From positions 1 to 34,522 of the forward strand of contig JAJYLN010000025.1 in the NCBI GenBank assembly GCA_021787665.1: a DNA stretch of 34,522 bases, in the 5' to 3' direction. Below, in pieces: positions 10,234 to 29,890 of the stretch. The first letter of the stretch is position 1, and each line of letters opens with the position of its first letter. The position numbers were made by a program, and so were the translations under genes. The stretch comes from a bacterium. GTDB taxonomy: Bacteria > JAMCPX01. The notes beneath the pieces were generated by a model. That model had not been told where the DNA came from, searched no databases, and saw only the letters and a program-made list of their open reading frames with translations.

Positions 10234-10797
10234 ATGCTGAAAGACAGGATAGAAGCACTGAAGGCACTCTTTAAGGACAACGACGACCGCGTGCGGCAGG
10301 CCGCTTCCAGCGCAGTAGAACGGCTGAGTATGAAGGCGGACATCGGCAAGTTCGGCGAGGCGCTTGCGAGCGAGGACGTCCTTGTCAGATCCAGGGCCGT
10401 GTTCGGGCTGGCCGGGCTCGAGGACACGAAGTCTTGGGAGTATCTTGCGATGGCCACCGCGGACAGGGACGCAAGCATACGGGCACACGCAGTGCATATA
10501 CTCGGGGAGAAGAAGGCAGTAAAGTATCTCGATGCCATCGTCAGACGCATGGCCGACCCGGACATGTCCGTTCGGATAGAGGCGATCCGTGCGGTGGGCG
10601 CTATCGGGAGCACCGCGCATCTTGCGAGCCTGCTGCAGCTCCTCAGGGATCCCAGCAACGATATCGTCATTGCCGCTATCACGGCCATTGGCAGACTGAA
10701 GGACCCGCGGGCGGAAAGGCCCCTCATCGTCCTCCTGTCCCACCCGGTCGCCGAAATCAGGAGTGCATCGGCCTCAGCCCTCGCAGACATCGATTGA
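10234..10797 (+). CDS. HEAT-repeat protein (scaffold), PBS-lyase-like repeats
   Basis: A 187-residue all-helical protein built of about five repeats of roughly 30 residues, with units such as DDRVRQAASSAVERL, DVLVRSRAVFGLAGL, DASIRAHAVHILGE, MSVRIEAIRAVGAIG and DIVIAAITAIGRLKD. The pattern of D-x-x-V-R and alternating alanine/leucine is that of HEAT or PBS-lyase repeats, which serve protein binding. There is no catalytic motif, signal or membrane segment. ATG 10234 is chosen for GAGGGGAG 10 bases upstream; GTG 10210, which overlaps the peptidase stop, would add eight residues. It is the last gene of the kinase/HD-GYP/peptidase set, and its role there is unknown. Confidence 0.85.
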   Translation: MLKDRIEALKALFKDNDDRVRQAASSAVERLSMKADIGKFGEALASEDVLVRSRAVFGLAGLEDTKSWEYLAMATADRDASIRAHAVHILGEKKAVKYLDAIVRRMADPDMSVRIEAIRAVGAIGSTAHLASLLQLLRDPSNDIVIAAITAIGRLKDPRAERPLIVLLSHPVAEIRSASASALADID

Positions 10798-10894
10798 GCC
10801 CATCCGCCTCGGCGTTTATTTCGTAACACATTCACCTGTTGCATATTGCGGGCAACTATGGTACCTAAGACAAACTTCAATGTTGGGAGGATAC

Positions 10895-11698
10895 ATGAAA
10901 AGATCAGGTGCGATTTTCTTTTTCATCACGGTAGTCTTCTTGGTACATCCTTTTTATGCATGTGCGGGCAAGGACATTACGTTCCCGGTACTGCAGAATT
11001 ATCTGTTGTCCCAGGACGAGTTCAAAAGCCTTTCAGAGGATCTTGGTCTGTCATTGAACTACAACCTGTTGGGTCCAGCGAGCAATCTTGGGTGGACGGG
11101 CTTTGAAATCGGCGGCAGTCTGAGCTTTGCGGTCATCGACAAGAACGCAAGTTACTGGCGCAAAGCAATACAAGACCACAATCCCCCAAGCTACCTTCTT
11201 ATTCCACGGCTGATTATAAGAAAGGGTTTGCCATGGGGCATTGATGTAGGTGTTTCATACCTGCACATACCGAACAGCAATATATCCCTCGTGGGAGCCG
11301 AGGCTCAGTACGCAATCCTCAAAGATGGCATAGTACAGCCTGCTATAAGTCTGCGCGGTGCATATTCGTCCCTGCTCGGCGTGAAGGAGTTGAGTATGCA
11401 GGTCATAGATGTATCTGTTGCAATAAGCAAAAAGATGCTGATATTCGAGCCGTACGCAGGTATAGCCGGAGTCTTTATTATGAGTAAGCCAGATACTATA
11501 CCCTCCTCCAGCACCGTCCTGCCGACACCGCCTGCCCTGCCGACACCGTCATCACTGGTCTACCTGAAAGAAGCGGATGTTTCCGAATTGCAGGGCACCG
11601 TCGGCGTACAGCTTGACCTTACGATAGCAAGGTTTGCAGTCGAGGCAGCATTTTCTAAAATACCCGTTTACAGCGTTAAACTTACCTTCGGCTTATAA
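10895..11698 (+). CDS. Secreted protein, probable outer-membrane beta-barrel, unknown function
   Basis: A 267-residue protein with a clear Sec signal peptide (MKRSGAIFFFITVVFLVHPF then YACAG; cleavage likely near residue 25). The body alternates short amphipathic stretches (GFEIGGSLSFAVI, GIDVGVSYLHI, AVEAAFSKI) and ends VYSVKLTFGL, consistent with strands of an outer-membrane barrel. A Ser/Pro/Thr-rich linker (about 204-222) contains a small tandem repeat. The start ATG has GGGAGG at a 4-base spacing. Codon use is visibly more A/T-rich than in the flanking genes, which suggests a later acquisition or relaxed selection. It stands alone between the HEAT gene and mraZ. The family is not recognised. 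Confidence 0.75.
   Translation: MKRSGAIFFFITVVFLVHPFYACAGKDITFPVLQNYLLSQDEFKSLSEDLGLSLNYNLLGPASNLGWTGFEIGGSLSFAVIDKNASYWRKAIQDHNPPSYLLIPRLIIRKGLPWGIDVGVSYLHIPNSNISLVGAEAQYAILKDGIVQPAISLRGAYSSLLGVKELSMQVIDVSVAISKKMLIFEPYAGIAGVFIMSKPDTIPSSSTVLPTPPALPTPSSLVYLKEADVSELQGTVGVQLDLTIARFAVEAAFSKIPVYSVKLTFGL
11519..11554 (+). repeat. Two tandem 18-bp units encoding LPTPPA / LPTPSS
   Basis: CTGCCGACACCG occurs at 11519-11530 and 11537-11548, an 18-bp period kept in frame. It encodes consecutive Leu-Pro-Thr-Pro units in the predicted surface or linker region of the barrel-like protein, and could expand or contract without frameshift. Confidence 0.7.
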
Positions 11699-12038
11699 CG
11701 AATAACAACGCCACTGTGAAGAAGGGAGGGTGTGTCTGTACCGTGCACAGCTTTTGACCACGGCTGGTATCCATTCCTCTGTACCTTTTTCATAAGGCCT
11801 CTGGAGGAGCTTGGCGTTATTGCCTTGGCTCCAAAGAAGACAGAGTCGATCACAACCGAATCCGCTTTTACTGCTATCCGTATGCCGTTTTATTGTTAAA
11901 ACTGCCGCTGACAGAAAGAAAAAGGTATGGGAGACAGCCCTCTAGCGTGTAGAAACGGGCCTAAAATCAGTTTTGTCTTACCGATAATCCCGCCGCAAGC
12001 CTACCCCACCATAGTGAACGGCAACCATCAATAATATC
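11699..12038. other. A/T-richer intergenic stretch without a supported gene
   Basis: I see no credible start with ribosome binding site, no RNA gene and no strong terminator hairpin here. A 61-residue minus-strand frame (11668-11853) extends into the end of the barrel gene and matches no family I recognise; fragments of decayed sequence cannot be excluded. The mraZ promoter begins at 12039. Confidence 0.6.
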
Positions 12039-12066
12039 TTGACATTTGCTTTTATGGTGGTATGAA
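12039..12066 (+). promoter_or_regulatory. Sigma70-type promoter of the dcw operon (Pmra)
   Basis: A perfect TTGACA (12039-12044), 16-base spacer and TATGAA (12061-12066, four matches) lie just upstream of mraZ. The transcript would start near 12073, giving a leader of about 30 bases. The -10 lies inside the first MraZ boxes, so bound repressor would block polymerase. Confidence 0.65.
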
Positions 12067-12095
12067 GTGGTATAAAGGGGTATGAAAAGGTAACA
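12056..12095 (+). promoter_or_regulatory. Four tandem 10-bp direct repeats, predicted MraZ operator
   Basis: Exactly phased units GGTGGTATGA (12056), AGTGGTATAA (12066), AGGGGTATGA (12076) and AAAGGTAACA (12086) give a consensus AGKGGTATGA. The phase is one DNA turn. MraZ is a ring-shaped AbrB-fold regulator that in other bacteria binds three or four short G-rich direct repeats with 10-bp phase in front of its own gene; this array has the right place, number and period. The first three repeats are strong and the fourth, nearest the ATG, is degenerate. Confidence 0.8.
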
Positions 12096-12102
12096 AAATT
12101 GT

Positions 12103-12546
12103 ATGGAATTTATAGGAAGATACAAGCATAAAATCGACAAGAAAGGCAGGGTGAGTATCCCCTCTGCGTTCAGGAAGATACTGTCCGAGGAGTACGACAA
12201 TAAAGTCATCATTATAAACAACCAGAGCAGACTCGACATCTACCCCTACCAGGTCTTTCAGCAGCGCAAGGAGAGGATCAAATCGCTGCCCCAGAGCCTC
12301 GACGTCGTCGAGGACTTCAAAGGCATGTACTTCGGCGATGCGTTCTCGTACGACATCGACGGACTGGGAAGGCTGTTCATCCCTCTGTATTTGAGGGAAG
12401 AGGTGCACCTCGTGGAGGAAGTGATCATATCCGGAGGAGACGAGATATTCTCGATATGGGACGCCGTCGTGTTCGAGCAGGAGCACCAGAGGATAAAGAA
12501 CAACTTCTCGAGCATCAAGAAGGGGATCGCACAGTATGGTGTTTAG
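12103..12546 (+). CDS. mraZ: Transcriptional regulator MraZ
   Basis: A 147-residue protein with the two tandem AbrB/SpoVT-like halves of the MraZ family, each marked by its D-x-x-G-R motif: KIDKKGRVSIP (about 10-20) and DIDGLGRLFIP. It forms ring oligomers and usually represses the dcw operon. It is the first gene of the cluster, and its predicted operator lies immediately upstream. ATG 12103 begins MEFIGRYKHKID, which aligns with the usual MraZ N-terminus; the ribosome binding site (AAAAGG, 12 bases away) is weak and lies in the fourth operator repeat. The stop codon touches the start of rsmH directly. Confidence 0.97.
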   Translation: MEFIGRYKHKIDKKGRVSIPSAFRKILSEEYDNKVIIINNQSRLDIYPYQVFQQRKERIKSLPQSLDVVEDFKGMYFGDAFSYDIDGLGRLFIPLYLREEVHLVEEVIISGGDEIFSIWDAVVFEQEHQRIKNNFSSIKKGIAQYGV

Positions 12547-13428
12547 ATGCATGTGCCGGTAATGGCAGAGAAGGTGGTCGGGTATCTGCACCCTGCGGAT
12601 GGCGCGGTGTACCTCGATGCCACGGCCGGAGAGGGGGGACACGCCCGTGCCCTGCTCGATGCATCGGCACCCGGAGGTTCCGTGGTTTGTGTTGACATCG
12701 ATGATCAGTCACTCAGGACCGTGGAAACGAACCTGAGGGATTTTGGCGACAGGGTAAAGCTGATCCGGGCGAACTATAAGGACATCCCGGAGATAGCGCG
12801 GCAGGCCGGCGTCCGAGGGTTCGACGGCATCGTGCTCGATCTCGGCTTCAACCTCTCACAGGTAGACGATGCCGCCCGGGGGTTCAGCTTCAGCAGTGAC
12901 GGCCCCCTGGACATGAGGTACGACAGGTCCCACGGTATCACGGCGTACGAGGTCGTGAATACCTTTCGGCCCGACAAGCTGGAAGACATCATAAGGGAAT
13001 ACGGCGAGGAGAGGCATTCCAGAGGCGTTGTGAGGGCCATAGTCAAGGCACGGGAGAAGGCGAGGATAGAGTGCACGGCGGTGCTCGCCTCCGTGATCGC
13101 CGGGGCCGTCCACGGTCGTTCACGCACACACCCGGCAACGAGGACGTTCCAGGCGATACGGATATACGTGAACGACGAGATGGGTAACCTGAAGGGATTC
13201 CTGGAGGCCGTCAAAGACTTCCTCAATGTCGGAGGAGTCCTGGTCATCGTATCGTTCCACTCACTCGAGGACCGGATCGTGAAGGCCGCCTTCCGGCGGC
13301 TCTCCACATTGTCCGCGCCCTCGTTCAGGATACTCACGCGCAAGCCGGTAACGCCTGACGCGGACGAGCTGAGCGTCAACCGCAGGGCCAGAAGCGCGAA
13401 GCTGAGGGCGATAGAGAGGTTAAACTGA
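12547..13428 (+). CDS. rsmH: 16S rRNA (cytosine(1402)-N4)-methyltransferase RsmH
   Basis: A 293-residue SAM-dependent methyltransferase (formerly MraW) that N4-methylates C1402 in the ribosomal P site. The start MHVPVMAEKVV is the family N-terminus. Motif I YLDATAGEGGHA (22-33) binds SAM. Further blocks are FDGIVLDLGFNLSQVD, a helical insertion, HPATRTFQAIRIYVNDE and VIVSFHSLEDRIVK, ending in a basic tail. Length is a little under the usual 310. The ATG follows the mraZ TAG without a gap, so translation is coupled. LDLGFNLSQVD carries asparagine where most homologues have LDLGVSSXQLD, a mild divergence. Confidence 0.97.
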   Translation: MHVPVMAEKVVGYLHPADGAVYLDATAGEGGHARALLDASAPGGSVVCVDIDDQSLRTVETNLRDFGDRVKLIRANYKDIPEIARQAGVRGFDGIVLDLGFNLSQVDDAARGFSFSSDGPLDMRYDRSHGITAYEVVNTFRPDKLEDIIREYGEERHSRGVVRAIVKAREKARIECTAVLASVIAGAVHGRSRTHPATRTFQAIRIYVNDEMGNLKGFLEAVKDFLNVGGVLVIVSFHSLEDRIVKAAFRRLSTLSAPSFRILTRKPVTPDADELSVNRRARSAKLRAIERLN

Positions 13429-27503: not shown

Positions 27504-28731
27504 CATGATCATCGGGCTGGACATAGGTACGACCAAGGTGTGCGCCATCGTCGGAGAGCTGAAAGAGGGCACCCTCGATGTGGTGGGCATAGGCAAGGTC
27601 TCGCCGTCCCACGGCCTCAGCAAGGGCAACATCATCAACATAGAGACGACCGTGAAAGCCATACGACAGGCGATCGAGGAGGCTGAGCTCATGTCCGACT
27701 ACGAGATATCGAGCGTGTACACGGGCATAGCCGGCGACCACATCAGAAGCTTCAACAGCAGCGGGGTGATCGCCATCAAGGACAGGGAGGTGAAGTCGAA
27801 CGACATAAAACGAGTCGTGGACGCAGCAAAGGCAATGCCGATACCGGCGGACAAAGAAGTCATCCATGTCATTCCCCACGAGTTCATCATCGATGATCAG
27901 GGCGGCATAAAGGACCCGCTCGGCATGTCCGGCGTGAGGCTCGAGGTCAAGGTACATATCGTAACGGCCAATGTCTCTTCTGCGATGAATATCGTGAAGT
28001 CGTGCAACAGGTCCGGACTCACGGTCTCGGACATCGTCCTCCAGTCCATCGCATCGAGCGAAGCCGTCCTCAACCAGGAAGAGAAGGAACTCGGGGTCGT
28101 GCTGGTGGACATCGGCGGAGGCACGACGGACATCGCCATCTTCTATGAGGGCAGCATCAAGTACACGAGCGTCATAGGGCTCGGCGGCGAGCACATCACC
28201 AAGGACGTATCCGTGGGCCTGCGGACGCCCATCCATGAGGCCGAGAAGATCAAGATAAAGTACGGGACCGCGATGCGCACGGGCGTCGACAAGGCCGAGA
28301 TGGTGGAAGTACCGGGCATCGGCAACAGGAAGTCGAGGACGATATCGAGGCAGACCCTGGCCGAGATCATAGAGCTCAGGACCGAGGAGATCCTGACGCT
28401 CGTGGACAAGGAGATCACGAAGTCCGGATTCAAGGAGTTCATATCTGCCGGCGTCGTCCTGACCGGCGGCAGCTCCGTGCTCGACGGCATGGTCGACCTC
28501 GGCGAGCAGATCTTCAACCTGCCGGTGAGGATCGGCTTCCCTTCGGGCATCGGCGGCCTTACGGACGTCGTCAAGGACCCCTCGTACGCTACCGCTGTGG
28601 GGCTCGTGATCTACGGGAGCAAGCACTCGCACGTGACGAACTACGGAAACAGGGACATAGAGATAGTGAACAGGATACGGGAATTTTTCGTGAACATAGC
28701 GTCAAAACTATTTGTCAAAAAAGGAGGCTAA
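27487..28731 (+). CDS. ftsA: Cell division protein FtsA
   Basis: A 414-residue actin-like ATPase that ties FtsZ polymers to the membrane and signals to the divisome. Phosphate loop 1 is [17 protein letters not shown] (8-24) and phosphate loop 2 is [15 protein letters not shown]. The SHS2 subdomain (1C) lies about residues 90-170, the adenosine loop is [12 protein letters not shown], and a C-terminal amphipathic anchor is [21 protein letters not shown] 27487 is chosen because GGGAGG lies 9 bases upstream; ATG 27505 is 27 bases from it and would cut close to the first strand. Overlap with ftsQ is 17 bases; one base separates it from ftsZ. Confidence 0.97.
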
Positions 28732-28732
28732 G

Positions 28733-29890
28733 ATGTTCGAATTGAGTAACGAGTATCATCATGCGGCAAAGATCAAGGTCGTGGGTGTCGGTGGAGGAGG
28801 AGGCAATGCAGTCAATACGATGATAAGGAGCGGCATGAAGGGAGCGGACTTCATTGCAGCGAATACGGACATGCAGGTGCTTACCAGAAACAAGGCGACG
28901 TACAAAATTCAGCTCGGTGCCAAGCTGACCAGGGGTCTCGGTGCCGGCGCCAGCCCGGCGATCGGTAGGGAGGCCGCCATGGAAGACGAGGCGAAGCTCA
29001 AGGACGTCCTCGGCGGTGCCGATATGATCTTCGTGACCGCGGGCATGGGCGGAGGCACGGGCACGGGCGCGGGCCCGGTCATCGCGGAGATAGCGAAGTC
29101 GCTCGGCGCCCTCGTCGTCGCGGTCGTGACGAAACCATTCGAGTTCGAGGGCAGGAAGAGGCAGATGCAGGCCGAGAAGGGTATAGAAGAGCTCAGCCAG
29201 TATGTCGACACCCTGATCGTGATACCGAATGATCGGCTGTTCAACATAGCCGATAACAAGACCACGGTACTCGAGGCGTACACCAGGGTCGACGAGGTGC
29301 TCCTCCATGCGGTGCGGGGCATATCCGACATCATCACGATCCCGGGACTCGTCAACGTGGACTTCGCCGATGTGCGGACGGTCATGGGAGAGATGGGAAT
29401 GGCCATGATGGGTACCGGCAGGAGTGAGGGCGAGAAGCGGGCGAAAGAAGCAGCGCACAAGGCGATATCGAACCCCTTGCTCGAAGACATATCCATAAGC
29501 GGGGCAAAGGGCATTCTGATCAACATCACCGGGGACGCCTCCATCACGCTCAACGAGATCAAGGACGCATGCGAGCTCGTCAAGGAACAGGTGGACGACA
29601 ACGCAAACGTGATATACGGCACGGTGATAGACGAGGACATGGGCGGCAGCCTCGATGTGACCGTGATTGCAACCGGCTTCGGCGAGAGGAGGATCAGCGA
29701 GAAGTATCCGATCGCAGGCAAGCTGTCCGTGGTCCACGGCGACTCGAACAGGGACATTCCTGCCTTCAAACGGGCGGACAGGAAGATCGACGAGATCGAC
29801 TCCGTAAAGTCGGTGAAGAAGGTGATGCTGACGGGCTACGACGAGGACGAGCTCGACATCCCGACGTTCCTGAGAAAAAAAGCGGACTGA
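28733..29890 (+). CDS. ftsZ: Cell division protein FtsZ
   Basis: A 385-residue tubulin-like GTPase that forms the Z ring. Visible are [16 protein letters not shown] (13-28), the tubulin signature GGGTGTG (106-112), the T7 synergy loop NVDFADV (about 205-211), and at the extreme C-terminus [14 protein letters not shown], the conserved peptide that binds FtsA and ZipA-like anchors. The linker before this peptide is short (about 50 residues). The ATG has a strong AAGGAGG 5 bases upstream, suiting the high level needed for FtsZ. It starts 1 base after ftsA and is followed 1 base later by purM. Confidence 0.98.

Follow-up and report, generated by a model that had tools for sequence, protein, structure and literature searches.

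What is encoded by the short, exactly phased repeats lying immediately upstream of mraZ in this bacterial contig, and do they represent a form of the MraZ binding site that has not been described before? The window, by which we mean the whole stretch of DNA that was analysed (34,522 nt), does contain the four 10-mers listed in a preliminary description of the locus, and they can be read directly at 12056 (GGTGGTATGA), 12066 (AGTGGTATAA), 12076 (AGGGGTATGA) and 12086 (AAAGGTAACA). By analogy with MraZ proteins studied in other bacteria, the array is very probably the operator of MraZ, the product of the first gene downstream, which would repress mraZ and the dcw operon. As judged from its sequence, it is an ordinary MraZ operator of a type already published. 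The comparisons below rely on a family set of nine genomes, namely the genome containing the window and eight further genomes carrying mraZ, which were compared in ungapped and gapped alignments. The features of the locus are as follows.

12039-12044, + strand: TTGACA, the -35 hexamer of the mraZ (dcw) promoter, read directly and found in 9/9 family genomes
12054-12063, + strand: putative MraZ box, unit 1, ATGGTGG + TAT, 5/7 to the core AAAGTGK
12058-12066, + strand: extended -10 candidate TGG-TATGAA, which combines the last bases of unit 1 with the adjoining spacer, at a 16-nt spacing from the -35 element
12064-12073, + strand: putative MraZ box, unit 2, GAAGTGG + TAT, 6/7 to the core AAAGTGK
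12074-12083, + strand: putative MraZ box, unit 3, AAAGGGG + TAT, 6/7 to the core AAAGTGK
12084-12093, + strand: degenerate unit 4, GAAAAGG + TAA, 4/7 to the core, purine-rich and a weak ribosome-site candidate
12093-12102, + strand: leader element ACAAAATTGT, located after the array and ahead of the start codon, invariant in 9/9 family genomes
12103-12546, + strand: mraZ, encoding the presumed binding protein (147 aa; Pfam PF02381 MraZ, scoring 80 bits where the cut-off is 23, in two stretches)
12547-13428, + strand: rsmH (mraW), the next gene of the cluster (Pfam Methyltransf_5, 310 bits)

The register of the array lies 2 bases away from that of the preliminary description. Each unit is a 7-mer followed by a 3-nt spacer, and exact 10-bp phase is kept by units 1-3 (12054-12083) and the degenerate unit 4 (12084-12093). 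A repeat finder recovered the array as three 14-nt copies with spacing 10 + 10, and 19 of 24 positions match when the array is compared with itself at lag 10. This level of self-match was equalled at lag 10 by 0/5000 dinucleotide shuffles of positions 11999-12149, and across lags 6-20 by 0/3000 shuffles. Elsewhere in the window it recurs, over lags 6-20, only at about 29040 and 11516, at lag 6 or 18. The repeat at 29040-29075 (lag 6/18) lies inside a Gly-rich GMGGGTGTG stretch of the ORF at 28712-29890, which we take to be FtsZ, and is probably a coding effect.

In Mollicutes the core site of MraZ is given as (AAAGTGKN3)3, where K is G or T, in an excerpt of PMC5282649, and direct repeats AAAGTG[T/G] are named as the MraZ site in an excerpt of PMC8475190; both excerpts quote Fisunov et al. 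2016, Biochimie, as the origin of this site. Units 1-3 follow the same pattern of GTG-containing 7-mer repeats with 3-nt spacers in 10-bp phase, and 17 of their 21 pooled positions agree with the Mollicutes core. The pentamer GGTAT, which the preliminary description considered to be the core of a new MraZ-box variant, is indeed present in three exact in-phase copies, but in register it consists of the final two G of the known core and the free spacer that follows them, and is not a new box type. The repeat had been read from another base, and a standard site thus looked new.

The pattern is retained among relatives. Units 1-3 are present in all nine family genomes, with each unit matching the core at 5-7 of 7 positions in every genome, and in the ungapped alignment 23 of their 30 columns are invariant (mean identity 94%). 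Mean identity in the same nine genomes is 54% over the 60 columns upstream of the array and 62% over the 7 columns of unit 4, which matches the core at 1-4 of 7 positions. Between units 1-3, 17 of the 18 spacers are TAT and one is CAT; if the spacer after unit 3 is included, the counts are 23/27 for TAT and 4 for CAT, the latter in four genomes. Unit 3 reads GGGG in 8/9 family genomes, as opposed to GTGK in the published core. It is noticeable that the neighbouring 12 columns, TAACAAAATTGT, have a mean identity of 98%, which is above that of the units themselves, so that the array is not singled out by conservation alone.

We identified a mraZ locus in 114 genomes, of which 111 had a start codon at the expected place (9 from the family and 102 others); G270, G147 and G262, where it was absent from that place, were left out. 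Since the surveyed genomes were picked mainly from the best-scoring MraZ matches (with matches in 48/60 and 232/290 genomes), the share of genomes with a box should not be interpreted as an unbiased rate. When the published core was scored at periods 7-16, period 10 was the unique best in 84 of the 102 non-family genomes and was not in the remaining 18. The corresponding counts in control sequences were 7/76 further upstream (a stretch obtainable for only 76 of the 102 loci), 10/102 inside mraZ and 6/102 in reverse complements. A three-unit score of at least 22, in which GTG positions count double by our own choice, was reached by 86/102 regions upstream of mraZ versus 1/76 upstream controls and 0/102 intragenic ones. 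An earlier period test, using a consensus AAAGTGG written partly from inspection of the loci, returned period 10 uniquely in 88/102. Distances between GTGG motifs amount to 137 pairs at 10 and 65 at 20, with at most 14 pairs at any other distance up to 42, and the distances between CCAC pairs in the same regions are without such a peak. In 90 non-family boxes, from a scan that extended 10 bases into the gene, the preferred bases are A-A-A-G-T-G-G, and the next three columns are loose. Outside the family, 10 of the 214 box spacers are TAT. No match was obtained when the DNA was compared directly with E. coli genomes. The preliminary description had made conservation upstream of mraZ the test of its proposal of a MraZ-type operator on the mraZ/dcw promoter, and the result, within the family and beyond it, is in favour of such an operator. 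The additional claim that the box is a new variant does not hold, given the match of the in-register units to the published site and the occurrence of TAT spacers outside the family as well.

The array also occupies the position expected of an operator, lying between TTGACA at 12039 and mraZ at 12103 in a promoter recognized from its sequence only. Nine bases separate TTGACA from unit 1, and the -10 candidate TATGAA (12061-12066) follows TTGACA at a spacing of 16 nt. As TATGAA is preceded by TGG, the candidate is of the extended -10 type, the motif of which is TGn-TATnnn. The first spacer starts this -10 candidate, so the MraZ site sits on it. A -10 candidate is found at the spacer of unit 1 in 8/9 family genomes, as TATGAA in seven (16 nt from TTGACA) and as TATAAA in G005 (15 nt); in G004, the candidate TATAGT lies just upstream of that place, at 16 nt. 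The mraZ promoter is not among the calls of a simple promoter scan, because TATGAA breaks the rule of a T at position 6.

Published work on MraZ from E. coli, Mycoplasma and Burkholderia suggests how such an operator might act. A ring of MraZ would touch successive GTGG units on a single face of the helix, the 10 bp between units corresponding to about one helical turn. Because units 1-3 cover the extended -10 candidate and the putative transcript start, bound MraZ would be expected to keep RNA polymerase off the -10 element and the first transcribed bases, resulting in negative autoregulation of mraZ and of the dcw operon behind it.

The distance from the GTG of the first unit to the upstream TTGAC is 17-18 nt in eight family genomes and 26 nt in G004. 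In 58 of the 68 non-family boxes having TTGAC it is 26-41 nt, within a range of 6-129. In comparison with the non-family boxes, the box of this family is shifted in place and is the same in kind. One could go further and propose that the MraZ site of this family is fused with the promoter, with TAT spacers turning its units into extended -10-like elements so that MraZ and RNA polymerase would compete for identical bases, and that the leader element ACAAAATTGT would be a second control site of the division operon; we regard this extended proposal as possible but rather unlikely.

With regard to the leader element, the start codon of G004 is 10 nt further downstream, and the distance between ACAAAATTGT and the array is unchanged. 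G004 and G257, which belongs to another family, have 15 bases (TACAAAATTGTAAGG) in common before mraZ, and G257 is the only one among the 102 non-family upstream regions to contain ACAA-NN-TTGT. The idea that ACAAAATTGT generally accompanies the MraZ box was rejected, as GTGG followed by ACAAAATTGTA at 6-18 nt gave 16 matches (in 15/386 genomes) versus 17 for a reversed control, using a pattern fitted to G004 that misses the other eight family genomes, in which the third unit is GGGG. Those of G004 and G257 precede located mraZ genes, the place of mraZ being known for only some of the matched genomes.

The preliminary description had also assigned two roles to the fourth repeat, proposing that it doubles as the ribosome binding site and that MraZ could thereby act on access to the start codon. 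The AAGG of this repeat stops 12 nt short of the start codon, and the best match to the anti-Shine-Dalgarno (anti-SD) sequence 4-12 nt before the start, assuming that sequence, has an energy of -3.9 kcal/mol in the genome of the window, which agrees with a weak ribosome-site candidate. Across the family this energy ranges from -0.7 to -7.3 kcal/mol, with G006 and G007 at -7.3 and G002 at -5.9, and the purine-rich unit 4 may aid ribosomes in these members. In the genome of the window, no anti-SD match within 24 nt of the start is stronger than that of unit 3 itself (-7.8 kcal/mol), at a distance of 20 nt, which is too far for the usual spacing. G004, the most divergent family member, has an AAGGTG that is separate from the array, 4 nt upstream of the start codon, and a GTG core retained in place together with a Shine-Dalgarno (SD) stretch is not what unit 4 displays among the relatives. 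As unit 4 is not kept as a MraZ unit and is a weak and uneven ribosome-site candidate, control of the start codon by MraZ is not supported.

Outside the family, 68 of the 90 genomes with a box have, 4-12 nt upstream of the start, a stretch that is SD-like at -4 kcal/mol or better, and this stretch overlaps the box by at least 5 nt in 40/68 genomes, or in 45/76 under a looser range, both counts being uncontrolled for the G-rich composition of the box. Since G-rich units are SD-like by composition alone, we make no claim that box units are general ribosome sites.

These observations bear on the possibility that the locus contains a new class of MraZ box, which would be read via GGTAT instead of the GTG core and whose fourth repeat would gate ribosome access. 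The exact phasing of GGTAT, the prevalence of TAT among the family spacers and the proximity of the fourth repeat to the start codon, with its weak anti-SD match, are all compatible with this proposal. It conflicts with the identity of the in-register array and the published site, with the rarity of TAT outside the family and its replacement by CAT in four family genomes, and with the loss of unit 4 among relatives, including a separate ribosome-site candidate in G004; we therefore consider it very improbable. Least probable of all is that the array consists chiefly of tandem extended -10 elements (TGGTATAAA-like), being promoter sequence rather than a protein operator, for although GTGG-TAT spells an extended -10 and the first such element is correctly spaced from TTGACA in most of the family (16 nt in 7/9 genomes, 15 nt in one), only the first unit has a fitting -35 distance, GTGG units elsewhere hold the 10-bp phase with spacers that are mostly not TAT, and the first unit of most non-family boxes lies well beyond that distance from TTGAC.

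Returning to the array as the operator of MraZ, we searched the genome of the window, which is 92.66% complete, for related sites. When the 18 bases of units 2-3 were sought with a tolerance of up to 3 mismatches, the array was the sole match in this genome. Three phased GKGG motifs occur exactly 5 times, the array being one of these occurrences, and short forms of the site are nonspecific in this genome. A wider MraZ regulon was considered and rejected, as two-unit cores with up to 2 mismatches (17 matches versus 36 for the reversed-pattern control) and three-unit patterns (49 versus 80) are both rarer than their reversed controls; the counts being below those of the controls, no further targets can be named in this genome.

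The presumed binding protein is encoded by an intact gene. The ORF at 12103-12546 contains two AbrB-like MraZ domains and resembles solved MraZ chains. Each MraZ domain carries a D-x-x-x-R motif, and in the alignment to those chains the two motifs read DKKGR and DGLGR (D-x-x-G-R in both halves). The structure matches include PDB entries 9qlr, 9sx6 and 9qlg, and a literature search on MraZ showed no paper on these entries among the matches listed. According to Pfam profiles, mraZ is followed by rsmH and then ftsL, and the subsequent ORFs are presumably ftsI, murE and murF. The ORF before the dcw cluster (10763-11698) matches DUF6588, a family without assigned function, at 27.5 bits against a cut-off of 27.

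The locus would thus add to the known MraZ operators one from a family in which all named relatives found (7/7) are metagenome-assembled genomes. The survey favors the view that the GTGG site with 10-bp phase is widespread in bacteria, and it yields a consensus that can be used, A-A-A-G-T-G-G and then three loose bases. Two local traits may be of interest to specialists, namely the TAT spacers that merge the site with the promoter and the invariant ACAAAATTGT leader element.

The Mollicutes site shares with the array its 7-nt core, free 3-nt spacer, 10-bp phase, three units and location at the mraZ/dcw promoter, and differs from it in that unit 3 is GGGG here instead of GTGK and that the spacer in this family is TAT or CAT. 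PMC9602371 yielded nothing about the MraZ site. In Burkholderia cenocepacia, according to an excerpt of PMC7761207, MraZ shifts a PmraBc fragment holding four 7-nt repeats with 3-nt spacers; the putative site, which was located via a GTG motif described as conserved in B. subtilis, E. coli and mycoplasmas, follows the -10 and covers the transcript start. The array likewise precedes mraZ, is built of 7-nt repeats separated by 3 nt, and lies near the -10 candidate and the putative transcript start. The B. cenocepacia site differs in having four units downstream of the -10, whereas here three units are good and the first lies on the -10 candidate. For E. coli, the MraZ site is reportedly made up of TGGGN repeats spaced by 5 nt (Eraso et al. 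2014). The repeated motif is TGGG there and the core is GTGG here, and the two systems have in common G-rich direct repeats, a 10-bp phase and a repressor that would act on its own operon.
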